The position numbers and the translations under genes were made by a program. DNA of 64,000 bases from an uncultured Campylobacterales bacterium (GTDB lineage: Bacteria; Campylobacterota; Campylobacteria; Campylobacterales; Arcobacteraceae): positions 1-64,000 of the forward strand of contig CANNFB010000003.1 in NCBI GenBank assembly GCA_947503785.1. The letters are read 5' to 3'. The notes under the pieces are model-generated. The model was not told the DNA's origin and ran no database searches. It saw only the letters and a program-made list of their open reading frames with translations. This document shows, piece by piece, positions 6,816 through 61,089 of this stretch (position 1 is the stretch's first letter; each line of letters opens with the position of its first letter).

Positions 6816-8147
6816 TTATTTATTTTTTATTGCCCATAATGAATAATTCACATTAGGAAGTTCTGAGGATAAATGGAATGCAAAACCAGCTGATTTCTGT
6901 AGCTCTTTTTCATTCTCTGGCGTTAATTCTAATTTAAAGTAAAGATGATTTACCCTATATGGAATCTCTTTTGGTGGTGTTGATAATGGTTTGATTTTAA
7001 ACCCAACAAGATGGAAGTTAACAAGATTTTTAATAGTCTCAATAGTTCCCATTTTTAAACTTGTTGTTAATACTTCTTTGATTTTTTGAGCTGATATATC
7101 TGCTGTAACTGCGAATACAAATGATGAGTTCTTTAATAATTCTTTATCTTTTACAGGAGAAATATAAATACCATATTTTCTTTGTTCAATTGCAAGAGAA
7201 ATACTATTTTGTTCTAGAACCATTGCTAACATTGATTTTAATTCATCTAAAATGTTATTAAAACTTGTAGATTGGTCTGAATGAATGTAGTTAAACTGTT
7301 TAAGTAGTCTTTTCTCTTTTTTCATAAATACCGCTAATTCTCCAGCTAAAGTACTTAATTCTAAGAAAAGCTCATCTGGATGTATTTTATCTTGTGTTAA
7401 TAAAAAGTGAAATTTACTTTCAGTTTTATTTAAAAGTTGTAGCATTAAATAATCGCCTAATTCAGTAGCTTGTAACACTGAATCACTAATTTTTTCAGCT
7501 AGTTTTTCTGCTCTATATGTAAGCATACTAGTTAATTCATTTACTTTTGATAATAATTGTTTTGATGAATTAAGATGTAAGTATGAAGCTAAAAATACTT
7601 CATCTAAAGATACTATTCCACTTGTTGAAACAGCTCCTACTTTTGCTATTTTTATATTTACATAGCCATCATTTAATTCATCTTCTAATAACAATTTAAA
7701 ATTATGTTGTGCAGTTAAAATATCACTGTTACTAGATTCTCCTGCATTCGTATTTGGCACATTTGATACTGTTTGTGCCTTATATCTTGTTAAAAGATTT
7801 TTTTGCTCTTCGAAATGTATATCATCACTATCTTGGATAAATAAAGGTAGTGCTAAATAAACATATTTATTAGTATCTGTTGCTTTGATATTTAATGTAA
7901 GATTATTCTCTTCTCTAGTTGTTATTTCAAATAATGTACCATCAGGCATGATTCCAGAAGCACTTTCAAGTATTATTTTACCAGTACTTAATAAGTGTTC
8001 ATCAATTTTTAAATTAAAGAAACCCCAATTATTAGCTCTTGTTTGGTAAGTTCTTGTTCTTAATTCATAATTGTAATATCTATCATTTTGCTGAAAATGT
8101 TGTGGTCTTATAAAAAGACCTTCTCTCCAAACTACTTTATTTTGCAT
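6816..8147 (-). CDS. tssK: TssK, T6SS baseplate-membrane adaptor
   Basis: The 443-residue product begins with VVWREGLFIRPQHFQQNDRY, a hallmark of TssK (VasE/ImpJ). The trimeric protein links the TssEFG baseplate to the TssJLM membrane complex. The length is normal for the family. Its ATG shares a base with the tssJ stop codon, and tssL follows after 14 bases. Confidence 0.95.
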   Translation of the reverse strand: MQNKVVWREGLFIRPQHFQQNDRYYNYELRTRTYQTRANNWGFFNLKIDEHLLSTGKIILESASGIMPDGTLFEITTREENNLTLNIKATDTNKYVYLALPLFIQDSDDIHFEEQKNLLTRYKAQTVSNVPNTNAGESSNSDILTAQHNFKLLLEDELNDGYVNIKIAKVGAVSTSGIVSLDEVFLASYLHLNSSKQLLSKVNELTSMLTYRAEKLAEKISDSVLQATELGDYLMLQLLNKTESKFHFLLTQDKIHPDELFLELSTLAGELAVFMKKEKRLLKQFNYIHSDQSTSFNNILDELKSMLAMVLEQNSISLAIEQRKYGIYISPVKDKELLKNSSFVFAVTADISAQKIKEVLTTSLKMGTIETIKNLVNFHLVGFKIKPLSTPPKEIPYRVNHLYFKLELTPENEKELQKSAGFAFHLSSELPNVNYSLWAIKNK

Positions 8148-8602
8148 TATTCTGCTCTTTCAATACTAAATTTTTTAATTTTTAATTCAATATAATTATA
8201 TTTTTCTTGCTCTAAATTAATAACATATTTCCATGATGATTTATTTTCAATATTTCTAAATTTACCAATTACACCTAAGAACTTTGTATTCTTTTCAAAT
8301 ACTATTTTATAAACTTGTTCTTGTTGAGGAACAATTATATGCTTAGATTGTGATACTAAATCATCACCTAATTTTTTACCAGATTTATTTAATAATTTCC
8401 AAAAGTCATATTTTAGAAATTTTTCTGCTGATTCAAGTTCATAAAAAGTTAACATTAATGGTGAAGATACATCATCTAAATCAGGGTTTAAATCTTTTGA
8501 TGATTGAACTACCAACTCAATGTGTGTTGGTTTACTTGAACATCCACTTATGATAAATATTATAAAAATAAGTGTAAGTATTGGTTTTAATAATTGTTTC
8601 AT
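8147..8602 (-). CDS. tssJ: TssJ, T6SS outer-membrane lipoprotein
   Basis: This 151-residue protein has a lipoprotein signal peptide ending in FIISGC, with the lipidated cysteine near residue 21. The rest fits the small beta-sandwich of TssJ (VasD/SciN), including the typical PLMLTFYELESAEKF stretch. It tethers TssM to the outer membrane. It lies between the FHA gene and tssK, overlapping the latter. Confidence 0.92.
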   Translation of the reverse strand: MKQLLKPILTLIFIIFIISGCSSKPTHIELVVQSSKDLNPDLDDVSSPLMLTFYELESAEKFLKYDFWKLLNKSGKKLGDDLVSQSKHIIVPQQEQVYKIVFEKNTKFLGVIGKFRNIENKSSWKYVINLEQEKYNYIELKIKKFSIERAE

Positions 8603-8613
8603 TTTATGTCCTT

Positions 8614-9993
8614 TTATATTGATGTTAATTTTATACTATATGAAATATTGTTGTACTCATTTGAAAAATCTTTTTCAATTAAGTTTATTCCAAAATCAGG
8701 GTCTTCATTTAGCTTTTTAAACATATTTATATATGCATCCCACATTTGATATTTTTTAGGCATTAATGCACTTAATGCACCATTTTTTTCAAAATGATGT
8801 TCTAGGCTTTTTGGAGAAAACTTTAATACTGCTATATTGATAAGGTTTTTACTTGATCGATGTAATGCAATATTATGAATATCTAGTTCAGTAAAAGATT
8901 TTTTAACTGCTTCTGATATTTTTATATTATTATCATTTTTATTATCTAATAAGTTTAAAGCATATTGACCCATTTTAATAGGATTAGCATCATCATATGC
9001 AGGGCTTATATCAGAAATAAGAAGATCTTTTTTTATCTTGTCTTTTGTATTTAAAGAGTTCTTCAAACCTTCAAGTGAATTAATAACTATATTTGAAATT
9101 TCAGTAAGTAGAGCATCTCTTTGTTCTTGATTTAATGAAGTCATTTCAATACCTAGTTTTTTTTCTAATATTGAAAGTCCATGATTTGTTTCTTCTTCAC
9201 TTATGATAGGTTTTTGTTTTATTACAATATCTTCTACGATTGGGGCTTGTTTACTTGGCGTAATTGGTGTACTTACAACAACTTCCTTTATAACTTCATC
9301 TTCATCAATCTCATAAACGATATCTTCTTCTTGTGCAAGTTCTTTAAATTGAGGAATGTTTATATGCTCTTGTAAAGGCTGGGAACTTATACTTTCTTGT
9401 GCAAAGTCTTGAGTTAAAATTGTTGGTTCAGAGTCTTTTTCAAAAGAGTATAAATCATTTTCATTTACATCATTATCATTAAACATACTCATTACATTTG
9501 AACTAAAATTTTCTTCTTCGGGAATAACAAAAGAGCTTGTCATAATATTATTATCTTCAAGTAAAAAGTCATCATCTGGAATTAATTGATTGCTTGATTT
9601 ATTATAATTATTAGATGTTTGTGGATTTGATACAAGTGTTTGTTCATTGATAATATCATCTTGTGTATAATCATTGTCCATGAATCTTGCTTGTATTTCA
9701 TATTCACCAAGAACAAAAATATCTGTAGAATTTATTTTGATTGAAACACCTTTAGGTAATTTCTTATATGGATATTTTAAATAAGTGCCATTTGTACTTT
9801 GATCTTTTATAAAATAAATACCATCTGTATAATCAATAATAGCATGGATACCAGATATATAGCTCTGTCGATCTTCAAGTTGCCAAGAAGCATCATTAGA
9901 TCTTCCAATAGTTCCATTTGTCATATTAAAATGGAAATTTCGTTTATGTGGAATATCCTTTCCATTCTTTATTATGTCAAATATAAGTTTCAT
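8614..9993 (-). CDS. tagH: T6SS FHA-domain protein (TagH/Fha-like)
   Basis: The 459 residues have a forkhead-associated domain at about 25-95 with the GRSNDASW, SGIHA and STNGTYL signatures that bind phosphothreonine. A long acidic, low-complexity linker (about 110-270) and a conserved C-terminal TagH/VasC domain follow. In T6SS with a kinase-phosphatase pair, this protein is the usual substrate and activator. Both partner enzymes are encoded in the same operon, so that role is likely here. It follows a 43-residue lipoprotein gene by 3 bases and precedes tssJ by 11. Confidence 0.9.
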   Translation of the reverse strand: MKLIFDIIKNGKDIPHKRNFHFNMTNGTIGRSNDASWQLEDRQSYISGIHAIIDYTDGIYFIKDQSTNGTYLKYPYKKLPKGVSIKINSTDIFVLGEYEIQARFMDNDYTQDDIINEQTLVSNPQTSNNYNKSSNQLIPDDDFLLEDNNIMTSSFVIPEEENFSSNVMSMFNDNDVNENDLYSFEKDSEPTILTQDFAQESISSQPLQEHINIPQFKELAQEEDIVYEIDEDEVIKEVVVSTPITPSKQAPIVEDIVIKQKPIISEEETNHGLSILEKKLGIEMTSLNQEQRDALLTEISNIVINSLEGLKNSLNTKDKIKKDLLISDISPAYDDANPIKMGQYALNLLDNKNDNNIKISEAVKKSFTELDIHNIALHRSSKNLINIAVLKFSPKSLEHHFEKNGALSALMPKKYQMWDAYINMFKKLNEDPDFGINLIEKDFSNEYNNISYSIKLTSI

Positions 9994-38374: not shown

Positions 38375-39670
38375 TTGATTAAAAAATTTAAAAAATATTT
38401 ATTTGCATTAGTAATTTTACAAGGAAGTTTAATGAGTGCTAGCATAAAGCATATAGAAATAAAAGGGATTAAAGTTCCAATAGTTTTTGAAAAACAAAAT
38501 AGTTTACCTATTTTAAATTTACAATTAGTTTTTCAAAATTCAGGTTATATTCAAGATAAAGATAAAAGTGGATTAGCAAGTTTTTCTTCAAAGTTATTAA
38601 ATGAAGGAACTAAAGAATTAGGTTCTACTAAATTTGCACAAAAATTAGAAGAAAATGCAATTTCATTACATACATCAAATGGTTTTGAAACTTTCGTAAT
38701 GGAATTATCAAATTTAAAAGATGTAAGTGATAAGTCAATTGAATTATTAGCTAAATTAATTAAATCGCCAAATTATAGTAATGATACATTATCTAAGTTA
38801 AAAACATTAAAAACTGGTGAATTAAAAAGAAAAGAAAATGATTTTGATTATACTACAAAGAATTTATTAAAAGCAAATCTTTTTAAAGGTACATCTTTAG
38901 CCAATCCTAGTTCTGGTAGTTTAGAAAGTATTGAAGATATTAAACTTAAAGATATAAAGACCTTTATCAATGATACAGTTAATCTAAATAACTTAATTAT
39001 TGTTGCAGGTGGAGATTTTACTTATAAAGAGTTTGCAACTTTAATCCAACCTGTTTTAGATGCTTTAAAACCAGGAACTAAAAGAGAATTAGAAGAGATT
39101 AACTTTGTATCTAAAGATACAGAAGAAACACTAATCAAAGAAACAGAACAAGCTTATATTTATTTTGGGAGCTCATATAATGTTACAGCATCTGATAAGA
39201 ATAGATATATAGCAAAAGTTGCATCATTTATTTTAGGTGGTTCAGGTTTTGGTTCAAGACTTATGGAAGAAATTAGAGTAAAAAGAGGACTTGCATATAG
39301 TGCTTATGGTTCTGTTTCTATAAATAAATCTCATACATTCTTCAGCGGCTATTTACAAACAAAAAATGAAACTGCAAAAGAAGCACAAGCTTTAGTTAAA
39401 GAAATCATTAAAGATTTTGTAAAAAAAGGTGTTACAAAAGATGAGTTAAAAGCTGCAAAAAACTTTTTAACTGGAAGTGAACCTTTAAGAAATGAAGTTT
39501 TATCTCAAAGACTAAATAAGGCTTTTACTCTTTATTATAGAGGTTTAGATCAAGACTATCCAAAAAGAGAGTTGGATTTAATTCAAGATTTAAAATTAAA
39601 AGATTTAAATGAATTTATAAAATCTCATGAAGAGATCAATAATTTAACATTTGCAATTGTAAGGAAATAG
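38375..39670 (+). CDS. M16-family protein without the zinc motif
   Basis: The 431-residue product starts with TTG and has an N-terminal signal-like segment. It has the fold signature of insulinase-like M16 proteins ([14 protein letters not shown], then [20 protein letters not shown]). Active members carry HxxEH in the first stretch, and here that position reads SFSSK, so it cannot bind zinc in the usual way. M16 peptidases often pair an active with an inactive subunit. No active partner is seen in this window. It probably lies in the periplasm. Confidence 0.85.
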
Positions 39671-39671
39671 T

Positions 39672-40949
39672 TTGTTAAGATTTGCACCAAGTCCTACATC
39701 TAGCATGGACGTTGAAAGTTTAAGAGTTGCTATATTTAATTATATTGTAGCTAAGCAATTAAATGAAGACTTAGTAATAAGAATTGAAGATATAGATAAA
39801 GAAAAAAATATTGATGGAAAAGATAAAGAAATTTTAGAAATTTTAAGTCTTTTCTCAATTGATTATTTAACGGCTGCACATCAAAGTGATTCCTTAAAGT
39901 ATCATCAAAAGATGGCTATGCAACTTTTAACAAAAAAGAAAGCATTTTCTTGTTTTTGTGGAGATGCTAAACTTCTAGAATTAGAAGAAGAAGCAAAAGC
40001 TCAAAATAAACCTTTTGTATATGATGGGTTTTGTCAAACTTTATCTGATGAAACGATTTTAGAAGTAAATGCACCTTTTACAGTAAGAATTAATAAACCA
40101 GAAGAAAATATTAAATTTACAGATATCTTAAAAGGTGATTTCGATGTAAGTCCTGATGAGATTGATGCTTTTAATATTTTAAAACATGATAAAACACCAA
40201 CATATGATTATGCTTGTGCTGTTGATGATATGCTTATGGATATTTCACTAATAATTAGAATAGAGGAACATTTATCAAGTACTGCAAAGCAAATACATGT
40301 AAGGAATTCTTTGGGTTATACAAAAGAGATTAAATTTGCACACTTAGCAAAGATCTCTAATATTCCAAATATTGCAAGTTCTATAAAATCTTTAATTGAT
40401 GAAGGTTTTCTTCCAAGTGCTATTGCTAATTATTTAGTTGTTTTAGGAAATAAAACTCCAAAAGAAATTTTTTCTTTAGAAGAAGCAATAGAGTGGTTTA
40501 AAATTGAAGATATTTCAGCAGATGTGACAGAGTTTGATATTGATAAATTAAGATTTATTAATAAAAAACATTTAGAACAAATGGATGAGATGAGATTATC
40601 TAAGTTATTAGGTTTTGCTGATTTAGATATTGGTAAACTTGGAAAGGTTTATCTAGAAGAAGTTTCTACATTAAAAGAGTTAAAAGATAAAATTAACACT
40701 ATTTTTGAATCAAAAACTACATGCATTGGTTTTGAAGAAGAATTTAAAAAATTAAAAGACTGTTTACAAAATGCTCCATATCATGATGATTTCAATGAGC
40801 TAAATAAATATATCACAAAAGAAACTGGATTAAAAGATGATTCTTTATCTAAACCATTAAGATATCTTTTAACAGGAGAAAAAACTGGAGCAGATATTTC
40901 AACTATCTATCCATTAATTAAAAACTATTTAGGAGAAATTATAAAATGA
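39672..40949 (+). CDS. GluRS-like protein lacking both synthetase signatures
   Basis: This 425-residue protein aligns by eye along its whole length with bacterial glutamyl-tRNA synthetases: RFAPSPT at the start, RIEDIDKE near 37-44, YDYACAVDD at 178-186 and the C-terminal anticodon-binding part. The HIGH motif reads MDVE (12-15). The KLSKR loop is missing: the region at 227-240 reads [14 protein letters not shown], several residues shorter than normal. Both elements are needed to bind ATP and form aminoacyl-adenylate. The intact frame suggests a retained pseudoenzyme rather than a dead gene. Its position before yggT and slt matches that of gltX in Campylobacter. A working GluRS must be encoded elsewhere. 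Confidence 0.85.
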
Positions 40950-41218
40950 TAGATGCCTTTATTACTTCTGTACTTACTGTAGTCTTAACAATTATATCTT
41001 TATATAAATGGGTTATTATAATCTCAGCACTATTAACATGGGTACGACCTGATCCAAATAATCCTATTGTTCAAATGTTATATAGATTAACAGAACCAGC
41101 TTATGCGTTGGTGCGAAAATATATTCCTACTGTTTTTGGTGGAATGGATTTAGCCCCTATTATATTAATCTTTGGATTAATGTTCTTAGAAATTTTCTTA
41201 AAAAATTTATTCTTTTAG
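40946..41218 (+). CDS. yggT: YggT-family membrane protein
   Basis: A 90-residue integral membrane protein with two hydrophobic segments (about 3-30 and 67-88) and the typical [20 protein letters not shown] stretch between them. YggT proteins are linked to osmotic stress and to membrane or division functions, but the mechanism is not firmly known. Its ATG overlaps the stop of the GluRS-like gene (ATGA). Confidence 0.9.
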
Positions 41219-41227
41219 TATAATATT

Positions 41228-42880
41228 ATGAAAAAACTAGTAGCTTCTTTATTTTGCCTTGCTGCATTAAATCTTAATGCAAATACTGAAGCTGTTAACA
41301 TTACAGACAAAGGTTTTAAAGTCACACTAGATTGGCTTGATGAAAAACCAAAATCTTATGCAAAAGATTTCTTTATTATTCAATATTTAAATCAAAAAAA
41401 TATTAGTGAACAAGATGCTCAAACAGCTTATGATATGTCACGAGCAAAAAAAGGAAGAGTAAAAAAAGCTTTTAATAAAAGATTTTCTAAGATTCCAAAT
41501 AAAGACTTACGATGTTATAGAGCAAGTTCAGAAGATTTATTAAAAGAAAATTCTAGATGTATTGCCTTAGGTTTAAGTATTTTTGATGCAACAAAAATGT
41601 CACAAGAAAATTTAAAAAATGCAATTGAAAAAATCAAAGACTACCCTACTTTGGCAAACGATTTAGAAATATTCGCTTCAGACGATCCTTTTAATGCTTT
41701 ATTAAATGCAAATACAAATAGATTTTACAGATTATTTTTTGATTCAAGAGATACTTATCGTACGAATATTATAAATAATACAATACCCCAAAGTTTTATT
41801 GATAAATTAGCACAAGAAAATAGTTTTAATAGGTTTATAGATTATGTTGTTCATCGAGGTAAATTAGATAAGATTCAAAAATCTTTATTTAATGTAAAGA
41901 ACAACAATAAAATTACAAATCAAACCTTTTTCTCTTTAGCTTTAAATGCAATTAATTATAATAAAGAAACAGTTGCCTTAAACTATTTAACACAAGCATA
42001 TAATAAATCTTATTTACAATCAGATAAAGATAAATCTCTTTTTTGGATTTACTTATTAACTCAGAATAAAACTTTTTTAAATGAAACTGCTCAGAGTTGG
42101 GATAATAACTTATACTCTTTATATGCAAAAGAGTTATTAGAAGTATCAATTGATAATATTTATTATGATATTGATATTCCAAATACACCAAGTGTATATA
42201 ATACTTTAGATCAATTTGAATGGATTAAAGTTGAAGTTGATACAAAGAAAAATCTTGATGATGTAAAATTAGCTAAATATACAAATCTTTTTACTGAAGC
42301 TTCAACTTTGCCTCATTATGCTTATGTATTAGAAAGATACGCACGATACAGAAAACAGTATTTTATCAAACCTTTTAGAAATGTTATGCAAAATTATGAT
42401 GTTAATAGACAAGTTTTAATGTACGCTATTGGAAGACAAGAAAGTAGATTTATTCCATCTGCTGTATCTTTTGCAACTGCTCAAGGTGTAATGCAAATAA
42501 TGCCATTTTTATCAAAGCAACTATCTAAAGATTTAAAAGAACCTTACAATATTTATGAACAGTTTTTACCTGAAATAAACTTGAGATATGCAAATAAGCA
42601 TCTTGATTCTTTGGCTAAACAATTTGATAATAATCCTTTATTTATTGCTTATGCATATAATGGAGGAGCAGGATATACAAGAAAACAGTTTAAACGTGGG
42701 CTATTTAAAGAAAAAAATAGATTTGAACCATTTATGAGTATGGAACAAATCTCATATGCAGAAACTAGAAAGTATGGTAGGAAAGTCTTAACAAACTATT
42801 ATATTTACAATAATCATTTAAATAAAGAAAATAAAATTTCTTTATCTTCTATTTTTCAAAATCTAATTTTGCCGAATTAG
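41228..42880 (+). CDS. slt: soluble lytic murein transglycosylase
   Basis: This 550-residue periplasmic enzyme cleaves the glycan strand of peptidoglycan, forming 1,6-anhydro ends. It has a signal peptide (ending LNLNA), a helical superhelix region, and a C-terminal SLT domain with the catalytic glutamate in IGRQESRF, then AQGVMQIMP and AYNGGAG. It follows yggT by 9 bases. Its 3-prime end overlaps the convergent lipoprotein gene by 32 bases. Confidence 0.92.
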   Translation: MKKLVASLFCLAALNLNANTEAVNITDKGFKVTLDWLDEKPKSYAKDFFIIQYLNQKNISEQDAQTAYDMSRAKKGRVKKAFNKRFSKIPNKDLRCYRASSEDLLKENSRCIALGLSIFDATKMSQENLKNAIEKIKDYPTLANDLEIFASDDPFNALLNANTNRFYRLFFDSRDTYRTNIINNTIPQSFIDKLAQENSFNRFIDYVVHRGKLDKIQKSLFNVKNNNKITNQTFFSLALNAINYNKETVALNYLTQAYNKSYLQSDKDKSLFWIYLLTQNKTFLNETAQSWDNNLYSLYAKELLEVSIDNIYYDIDIPNTPSVYNTLDQFEWIKVEVDTKKNLDDVKLAKYTNLFTEASTLPHYAYVLERYARYRKQYFIKPFRNVMQNYDVNRQVLMYAIGRQESRFIPSAVSFATAQGVMQIMPFLSKQLSKDLKEPYNIYEQFLPEINLRYANKHLDSLAKQFDNNPLFIAYAYNGGAGYTRKQFKRGLFKEKNRFEPFMSMEQISYAETRKYGRKVLTNYYIYNNHLNKENKISLSSIFQNLILPN

Positions 42881-43328
42881 AGTTTTCATCAGCTAAATTA
42901 AGAGTTAAATTATAAGTATCTTTTACTTGATTAAATTTTACAAGATAGTACTTTCCCCATGTGTTTTTTGACAAAATATTCTTATATTTTATATCATTAC
43001 TAGAAAGTTCTTCAATAGATTTAGGCTTTTGCCCATTTAAAGTAAAAGAATATCCATTTTCATTTACATTTTGACTCTTTGCTTCTACAAAATAAATAGA
43101 TGTAACAAATACTTCATCTTTTGATTTAAACTCTTTAATATCTGTATTATTTAAATACGTTCCCCATAAAAGAACCTTTTGTTCTTTATTTACAATTACA
43201 TCAGCTTTTTTTGTATATTGCATAGCTTTAGCTTCAATCTCATTTTTGTCAAAATGCTTTAATGCTGTAGTTGATGAACATCCAATAAATATAGTTGATA
43301 ATATTGATAAAGATAAAGTTTTGTACAT
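42849..43328 (-). CDS. predicted lipoprotein
   Basis: A 159-residue protein with a lipoprotein signal peptide (lipobox IGCS, cysteine at 17). The mature part is beta-rich and of unknown family. It lies 28 bases downstream of glnS on the same strand and ends inside the convergent slt gene, with no obvious terminator between them. Confidence 0.75.
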   Translation of the reverse strand: MYKTLSLSILSTIFIGCSSTTALKHFDKNEIEAKAMQYTKKADVIVNKEQKVLLWGTYLNNTDIKEFKSKDEVFVTSIYFVEAKSQNVNENGYSFTLNGQKPKSIEELSSNDIKYKNILSKNTWGKYYLVKFNQVKDTYNLTLNLADENSNSAKLDFEK

Positions 43329-43356
43329 ATATCGCCTTTTTTTAAATTTTTAGTTT

Positions 43357-45630
43357 CTATTTTAACTTTTGAGCAACTAACTGATTTACAACTTTAGGAT
43401 TTGCTTTTCCACCAGTTGTTTTTAAAACTTGACCTACAAAAAAGCCTAAAAGCTTAGTATTCCCTGCTTTAAATTTACTTACATTATCTGGGTTTTTTGC
43501 AATAATATCATCAATAATAGGAGAAATAATTGCTGGATCAGATATTTGTACAAGGCCCTTATCTTCAACTATTTTTGTTGGATTATCACCAGTTTTAACC
43601 ATTTCTTCAAATACTTGTTTAGCAATTTTACTCGAAATTGTCCCATCATCAAGTATTTTAACAAGTTGCGATATTTGACCTGCTGTAAATTTAAGCTTAG
43701 ATATTTCTTTATCTTTTAATTCTCTAGCCACTTCTGTTACAACAATATTTGCTAAACTAACAGGACTGTTTAAAGTAGATAATGACTCTTCATAAAATGT
43801 TGATAGTTTTTCATCACGTGCTAAAATATTTGCTACTTCATTATTTAAACCAAGTTCTTTTAAATATTTATCAAATAATACTTTTTCTTTATCACTCATA
43901 GCTGCAACTTCTCCAACTACTTGTTCATTTTTAACTTGTTTTTTTGTTTCTGCTTTTACTTCATTATTTGACTTTGGTTCTTCTGCTTTTGTTTTTTTAG
44001 CCCAAGAGTCTTTAAGTCCAACAATTTTATTAAATACAGGTTTTTCATCTCTATAATCAAGAGGATCTGCATAAAAATATCCCTGTCTTTCAAACTGAAA
44101 TCTTTTATCTATTTTTTCAAGTATAACAGCAGGTTCAATAAGTGCATTTTTAATAATTCTTAATGAATTAGGGTTTAAATCTTCTATTCCCTCAGGTGCT
44201 TCATTTTTAAATAATCTATCATAAAGTCTTACTTCAATTTGTCTTGCTTCTTTTGAACTTACCCATTGAATAGCACTTTTTACTTTTATTCCACTAGTAT
44301 CACTTCCACTTTTTGAATCAGGATGATATTTTGCTTTTATTTCTACAATATTTCCCTTAGAATCTTTTATAACTTCTTGACAAGTGATTATGTATCCGTG
44401 TCTTAATCGTACAGCTTGAGTAGGAGTTAAACGAAAATAACCTTTTTCAGGATTCTCAGAAAAATCATCTCTTTCTATATAAATTTCATTTGAAAAAGGT
44501 ACTTTTCTTGTACCCTCTTTTGGAACATCGTGTGGATAATATGGAGATACAAGGTCTTCACTACCTTCATAGTTTTCTATTGTAACTTTAAGTGGATCAA
44601 GTACACACATTACTCTTGGTACTTTTTTATTTAAATCATCTCTAATACAAAATTCAAGTTGAGCTACATCAACCATCGAGTTAGCTTTTGCAACTCCAAT
44701 TTGATCACAGAAATTTAAAATTGATTCTTTTGTGTAACCTTTTCTTTTATATCCAGCAATCGTTGGCATTCTAGGATCATCCCAACCATCAACATATTTC
44801 CCCTCAACTAATTCTAAAAGCTTTCTCTTACTCATAACTGTATAGTTTATACCAAGTCGTGCAAATTCATGTTGGAACGGACGTGGTAATTCTAGTTTTA
44901 AAGTATCTAATACCCAGTTATAAATATCTCTATTATTTTCAAATTCTAAAGTACAAATAGAGTGTGAAACGTTTTCAATATAATCAGATAAACAGTGAGC
45001 AAAATCATACATAGGATAAATACACCATTTATCCCCTGCTCTAAAATGATGAGCATGTCTAATACGATATAAAAGAGGATCTCTTAATTTCATATTTGCA
45101 GCACTCATATCAATCTTAGCCCTTAATACATGCTCACCATCTTTAAACTCACCATTTTTCATTTTTTCAAAAAGGTTTAAATTTTCTTCAATAGTTCTAT
45201 TGGCAAATTTACTTCGTATTCCTGCTTGTGTAACAGTTCCTCTGTTTTCACGCATTTGTTCTTCATTTACACTATCAACATAAGCCTTATCCATTTTAAT
45301 AAGTTCAATTGCATAATCATATATTTTATCAAAATAATCAGAAGTAAAATGTACATTTTCTCCCCAGTCAAATCCAAGCCACTGTACAGCATCTTTTAAA
45401 GCTTCTACATATTTTGTGTCTTCTTTTGTTGGATTTGTATCATCCATTCTAAGATTACAGTGACCATTAAAATCAGATGCAATACCAAAATTTATACAAA
45501 TAGATTTAGCATGACCTATATGAGGAAAGCCATTTGGCTCAGGTGGAAATCTAGTAATAACTTCTTTATATTTGCCAGACTTTAAGTCCTCATTTACTAT
45601 TACATGTAAAAAATCTTTATTCTCACTCAT
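43357..45630 (-). CDS. glnS: glutaminyl-tRNA synthetase fused to a YqeY domain
   Basis: The 757 residues comprise a class I GlnRS (PPEPNGFPHIGHAK with HIGH at 37-40, and VMSKRKL for the KMSKS loop) with two anticodon-binding barrels, then a Lys/Glu linker near 550-580 and a YqeY/GatB-tail domain to the end. Such a fusion is known from Deinococcus, where the YqeY domain aids tRNA binding. Charging Gln directly makes the Glu-tRNA(Gln) amidation route of H. pylori unnecessary. An unusual GluRS-like gene lies 2.4 kb away on the other strand. Confidence 0.93.
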   Translation of the reverse strand: MSENKDFLHVIVNEDLKSGKYKEVITRFPPEPNGFPHIGHAKSICINFGIASDFNGHCNLRMDDTNPTKEDTKYVEALKDAVQWLGFDWGENVHFTSDYFDKIYDYAIELIKMDKAYVDSVNEEQMRENRGTVTQAGIRSKFANRTIEENLNLFEKMKNGEFKDGEHVLRAKIDMSAANMKLRDPLLYRIRHAHHFRAGDKWCIYPMYDFAHCLSDYIENVSHSICTLEFENNRDIYNWVLDTLKLELPRPFQHEFARLGINYTVMSKRKLLELVEGKYVDGWDDPRMPTIAGYKRKGYTKESILNFCDQIGVAKANSMVDVAQLEFCIRDDLNKKVPRVMCVLDPLKVTIENYEGSEDLVSPYYPHDVPKEGTRKVPFSNEIYIERDDFSENPEKGYFRLTPTQAVRLRHGYIITCQEVIKDSKGNIVEIKAKYHPDSKSGSDTSGIKVKSAIQWVSSKEARQIEVRLYDRLFKNEAPEGIEDLNPNSLRIIKNALIEPAVILEKIDKRFQFERQGYFYADPLDYRDEKPVFNKIVGLKDSWAKKTKAEEPKSNNEVKAETKKQVKNEQVVGEVAAMSDKEKVLFDKYLKELGLNNEVANILARDEKLSTFYEESLSTLNSPVSLANIVVTEVARELKDKEISKLKFTAGQISQLVKILDDGTISSKIAKQVFEEMVKTGDNPTKIVEDKGLVQISDPAIISPIIDDIIAKNPDNVSKFKAGNTKLLGFFVGQVLKTTGGKANPKVVNQLVAQKLK

Positions 45631-61014: not shown

Positions 61015-61089
61015 TGGGGTATGGCCAAGCGGTAAGGCAACGGCTTTTGGTGCCGTCATTCGTAGGTTCGAATCCTACTACCCCATCCA
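61015..61089 (+). tRNA. tRNA-Gln (TTG)
   Basis: The acceptor stem pairs TGGGGTA with TACCCCA, and T-CCA is encoded at the 3-prime end. The anticodon loop TTTTGGT gives anticodon TTG. The T arm is GTAGG-TTCGAAT-CCTAC. This tRNA is the substrate of the GlnRS at 43.4-45.6 kb. Confidence 0.95.

Follow-up and report, generated by a model that had tools for sequence, protein, structure and literature searches.

Locus and gene content

The window, the 64,000-nucleotide stretch of DNA analysed here, comes from an uncultured Arcobacteraceae bacterium (genome of 2.76 Mb in 54 contigs) and carries on its plus strand the row bamA-mqnC-M16 peptidase-gltX2-yggT-slt, with glnS-yqeY convergent to that row. 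The features that bear on gltX2 are:

38375..39670, plus strand: M16-peptidase-like gene, upstream of and abutting gltX2
39672..40949, plus strand: gltX2, catalytically degraded GluRS2 orthologue, 425 aa, TTG start
39708..39719, plus strand: degraded HIGH signature, D13 V14 E15 S16 (HIGN in intact orthologues)
39951..40034, plus strand: retained zinc-knuckle ligands, C94-x-C96 ... Y117 ... C121
40350..40382, plus strand: remnant of the KMSKS loop, residues 227-237, the rest deleted
40946..41218, plus strand: yggT-like gene, its start overlapping the gltX2 stop by 4 nt
43357..45630, minus strand: glnS-yqeY, intact GlnRS fused to YqeY, presumably the replacement of GluRS2 (NF011291, 1216 bits)
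61015..61089, plus strand: tRNA-Gln(UUG), U1-A72 retained

The gltX2 reading frame has no internal stop over its 425 codons. In profile searches its product matches gltX_bact (TIGR00464) over residues 2-417 at 331 bits (cut-off 289.95) and tRNA-synt_1c at 171.7 bits, and it is the GluRS2 of Campylobacterales, the tRNA-Gln-specific type of GluRS; it is not a Glu-Q-RS, scoring 125.7 bits against a cut-off of 276.7 for that model. The AF2 model (pLDDT 93.5) has the GluRS fold, including the C-terminal helical anticodon domain, and a fold search matched its whole length, about 420 residues, to solved GluRS at VIA Z 36.0-36.2, a match to the GluRS fold only, which active and inactive forms share.

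Both catalytic signatures fail in this protein. Close intact orthologues carry GDMHIGN and KKMSKRD at the HIGH and KMSKS sites, and in the alignment the window protein reads DVES at the first and lacks about 8 residues of the loop at 227-237. In the dead forms P6, G10, Y178, G197 and D199, which we take to belong to the adenylate site, are likewise changed or variable, the ATP-, glutamate- and tRNA-site roles used throughout being assigned from known GluRS structures. The window protein almost certainly cannot make an adenylate, and presumably it does not aminoacylate. The first-pass annotation, which described a full-length GluRS-like protein without HIGH or KMSKS that should form no adenylate, is thereby borne out, the second point at that same strength. 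The same losses were present in 10 of 10 sampled members of the genus and recur in the wider order; being common to several species, they rule out strain-specific decay or sequencing error.

The source genome encodes exactly three class Ic synthetases: the gltX2 product, GlnRS-YqeY and a canonical GluRS1, intact elsewhere in the genome (C2:314295-315620) with HIGG and KKLSKR. The glnS gene ends 2.4 kb from gltX2, and its product keeps both PHIGH and VMSKRK. In nearly all relatives with a readable flank yggT lies directly 3' of gltX2. The M16-like peptidase gene (38375-39670), which lies directly upstream of gltX2 in Arcobacteraceae, encodes a protein with a weak match to YfmF/YfmH models, below cut-off. 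Genomes with an intact GluRS2 show the same gltX2-yggT synteny, so the neighbourhood by itself says little about the role of gltX2 and lends little to the earlier reading of it as a sign of a selected role.

Signature loss tracks glnS across Campylobacterales

We sampled 250 genomes of the order, all drawn from one database, and found glnS in 88 of them and GluRS2 in 222. Of 139 GluRS2 sequences read, 138 were scored; the one set aside came from G031, which has a broken glnS. Signatures were lost in 80 of the 84 GluRS2 from genomes with glnS, against 2 of the 54 from genomes without it, where the other 52 were intact (80/4/2/52; Fisher p ~1e-30, uncorrected for phylogeny). Both traits change 22 times on the tree and the informative independent pairs agree in 12 of 12 cases (p ~0.0005), although the tree is that of the GluRS2 gene with the motif columns removed and has long branches, which makes the number of changes approximate. 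Both GluRS2 states also occur inside at least 11 genera (g10, g12, g23, g25, g35, g42, g57, g65, g67, g72 and g74), and these within-genus contrasts are independent of the exact count on that tree. The association supports the earlier proposal that GlnRS-YqeY made a second GluRS redundant. Loss of KMSKS precedes loss of HIGH: 13 genomes with glnS and without KMSKR keep the H and G of HIGH, the reverse was seen in none, and a deletion at the KMSKS loop was present in 58 genomes.

The exceptions fall on both sides. Four genomes with glnS keep the signatures (G145, G203, G241 and G207, the last lacking only the R of KMSKR). Two others, G128 (L192; 96% complete) and G025 (L019; 74% complete), have a degraded GluRS2 and no detectable glnS, and a search of both for a glnS fragment found none; they may be incomplete assemblies, secondary losses of glnS or real exceptions. 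The glnS of G031 (L308, G031:C171, about 7988-9205) contains many in-frame stops beside an intact GluRS2, an apparent reversal in which GlnRS is decaying and the indirect route has been kept. On a single contig of another genome (G035:C290; L307, L311) glnS and gltX2 are both full of stops, probably through assembly error or joint decay. GluRS2 was absent above the search cut-off from about 16 of the 88 genomes with glnS, of which G159, at least, has a truncated remnant. In nine genomes no match to either glnS or GluRS2 reached the cut-off (G049, G052, G056, G065, G068, G078, G090, G091 and G101); these may make Gln-tRNA by way of a non-discriminating GluRS or of a divergent GluRS2.

In 38 of 85 genomes with glnS, no more than about 3 kb separates this gene from gltX2. 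Several arrangements occur, with glnS-yqeY directly upstream, divergent or downstream (G055, G196 and relatives; G142, G206; G019; window 40949-43357), and such adjacency is commoner than random insertion would give. Among 60 relatives about half have glnS, 59 have gatA and all 60 have gatB. We found asnS in none of these 60 genomes, which rules out an AsnRS having replaced GatCAB; since asnS was not found, GatCAB presumably persists for Asn-tRNA(Asn), GlnRS having presumably taken over Gln-tRNA. A change in tRNA-Gln through loss of U1-A72 is likewise ruled out: each of the 28 genomes read has the pair, and the tRNA-Gln gene is identical in G262, which has glnS, and G160, which does not.

Dead forms are under purifying selection

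We estimated dN/dS on pairs by the Nei-Gojobori method and discarded values from distant pairs for saturation. In Poseidonibacter, gltX2 gave 0.16-0.20, compared with 0.11-0.13 for glnS (GlnRS constraint being compared in four Poseidonibacter-type genomes), 0.12-0.155 for slt and 0.08-0.12 for the M16 gene. Close pairs of dead GluRS2 elsewhere gave 0.10-0.33, shortened forms of 382-396 aa included, and the shortened pair G190/G234 gave 0.10. At the observed divergence neutral drift would be expected to produce about 11-15 stops; we saw none. Dead GluRS2 is under purifying selection and is not neutral debris, in line with the earlier suggestion that its retention is selected. HisZ is a HisRS paralogue that regulates HisG, and both HisZ and PoxA are class II with other partners; the dead GluRS2 is HisZ-like in having lost its catalytic residues while its fold is under purifying selection.

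The constraint is uneven along the protein. Of the sites invariant in family-matched active enzymes, dead forms keep 28 of 62 in the Rossmann halves, against 63 of 75 in the rest of the protein (p = 2e-6), and when dead pairs are compared with close intact ones, constraint is relaxed about twofold in the catalytic half and not in the anticodon half. Of 80 dead orthologues, 75 have all three zinc-knuckle cysteines and five have lost them; the cysteines persist in 23 of the 28 dead proteins that have deletions inside the knuckle. In all six families tested the dead forms have become more acidic, by about 8-25 net charges (about 10 typically), the largest shift resting on one intact sequence, and genus means show the shift in each of the 11 contrasts. 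Among the residues that we take to be Glu-pocket and tRNA-facing, Y178 and R45 stand at 0.45 or less in dead forms, R397 at about 0.5 and R196 at about 0.6. The idea that dead forms had acquired conserved residues was rejected, most apparent gains having vanished with family-matched controls. Because basic residues are lost and the proteins are more acidic, the retained function is probably independent of acceptor-stem tRNA binding or glutamate sensing, which goes against the tRNA or glutamate sensing role first suggested.

Discussion

We consider it probable that the window protein is a pseudo-synthetase left behind by a GlnRS takeover and kept for an older, non-catalytic role. The ancestral GluRS2 would have charged tRNA-Gln with glutamate for GatCAB, and horizontal gain of GlnRS-YqeY would have made this charging redundant. 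The adenylate site would then have been dismantled, the KMSKS loop first, then HIGH and the remaining ATP/Glu pocket. Since the protein outlived its catalytic activity in many lineages, the retained role most likely predates that loss, being present already in the active enzyme and independent of the active site. In the transamidosome of Thermotoga maritima GluRS touches GatCAB through its zinc-binding domain (PMC4381286), and because this domain is the contact there and survives here, GatCAB is our first guess for a partner. Continued contact between the zinc-knuckle face and GatCAB, in a partnership without catalysis, is an unproven guess, to which we give well under even weight; the zinc may serve folding alone.

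The next most likely partner is the YqeY-tailed GlnRS. By binding the YqeY tail, a homologue of the tail domain of GatB, a dead GluRS2 might stabilise or regulate GlnRS. The YqeY part of GlnRS does match GatB family models, and we found glnS near gltX2 in 38 of 85 genomes, but in many others glnS lies elsewhere, and some 16 genomes with glnS do without GluRS2, and we regard this explanation as unlikely.

Slow pseudogenization within an operon would require no function at all: the frame would stay open because gltX2 is wedged between essential neighbours and coupled to them, and the product would have to stay soluble while eroding. The gene does abut the M16 gene and overlap yggT, which is nearly always next, its loops are progressively deleted, the catalytic half is relaxed and some genomes with glnS lack GluRS2. 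However, coupling would keep the frame and not the residues, and dN/dS of 0.10-0.20 long after the loss, the most eroded pair included, is too low for such a process. Constraint on the anticodon domain is no weaker than in active enzymes, and the zinc ligands outlast local deletions. We find this account rather unlikely. The heavy trimming of some dead lineages and the relaxed catalytic half, which slow erosion would also give, nevertheless count against a retained older role, and that role is dispensable or replaceable, because about 16 of 88 genomes with glnS lack GluRS2 above cut-off.

It is improbable, in our judgement, that the protein acts on tRNA-Gln, either as a chaperone that binds it and helps GlnRS or in surveillance, hydrolysing mischarged Glu-tRNA-Gln. 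Its anticodon and stem-contact domains are kept and constrained, tRNA-Gln is unchanged and glnS is often adjacent. GluRS2 of Helicobacter pylori reportedly hydrolyses excess Glu-tRNA-Gln, and a title cited by two papers contains the phrase "GluRS2 hydrolyzes excess". The dead forms have nevertheless lost the tRNA-facing basic residues R45, R116, R171, K378, K388 and R397, with a shift of about 10 net charges in six families, and degradation has also reached the active-site residues on which such hydrolysis might depend. A synthetase still active with non-canonical residues is extremely improbable: the predicted fold is intact and R3, R37 and D185/D186 are conserved, but H13, G15, D199, Y178 and KKMSKR were lost independently in many lineages, with unrelated replacements.

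The pseudo-synthetase that we favour is orthologous to the active, tRNA-Gln-specific epsilonproteobacterial GluRS2 of the H. pylori type, with the same fold, length and gltX2-yggT synteny and with intact versions in the nearest relatives without glnS. It differs in lacking HIGH, KMSKS and other ATP/Glu-site residues and in being more acidic. The second GluRS of T. maritima reportedly charges neither tRNA and is described as inactive (PMC3927822), but as described it has a gene-duplicated catalytic domain and keeps a HIGH-type motif, and recurrent loss linked to glnS is not described there. HisZ and PoxA are synthetase paralogues similarly reused for other roles (PMC9437257), but they are not known to arise recurrently from a replaced enzyme as the dead GluRS2 does here. 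The only GluRS paralogue that the same review lists as having taken on a new function is YadB (PMC9437257). YadB, or Glu-Q-RS, also derives from GluRS, but is catalytic and without an anticodon domain, whereas the window protein has this domain at its C-terminus. We found no report of a degraded GluRS2 in the open-access literature. GlnRS and GluRS2 were noted to co-occur in 6 of 10 epsilonproteobacteria, with the suggestion that GlnRS is possibly non-functional there, and they co-occur in Mesorhizobium as well (PMC3927822). Our data make this inference look reversed: it is GluRS2 that has lost its signatures, and GlnRS, at least in the four Poseidonibacter-type genomes compared, retains its own and is constrained.

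The pattern across Campylobacterales, in which GluRS2 repeatedly loses its catalytic site once GlnRS is gained and is usually kept intact under selection, points to a second, non-catalytic job. It could be, at slightly less than an even chance, that GluRS2 throughout Campylobacterota, active Helicobacter and Campylobacter forms included, has such a function, and that GlnRS replacement made natural separation-of-function alleles more than 10 times, keeping only that function. The published view of which enzyme works in these bacteria apparently needs correcting, and the automatic annotation "glutamate--tRNA ligase" is probably wrong in many genomes. The order offers a replicated natural experiment: in many lineages horizontal transfer has supplied a substitute for an essential enzyme, whose remnant would expose a hidden second function, and this makes moonlighting in the GatCAB/GluRS2 system open to test.
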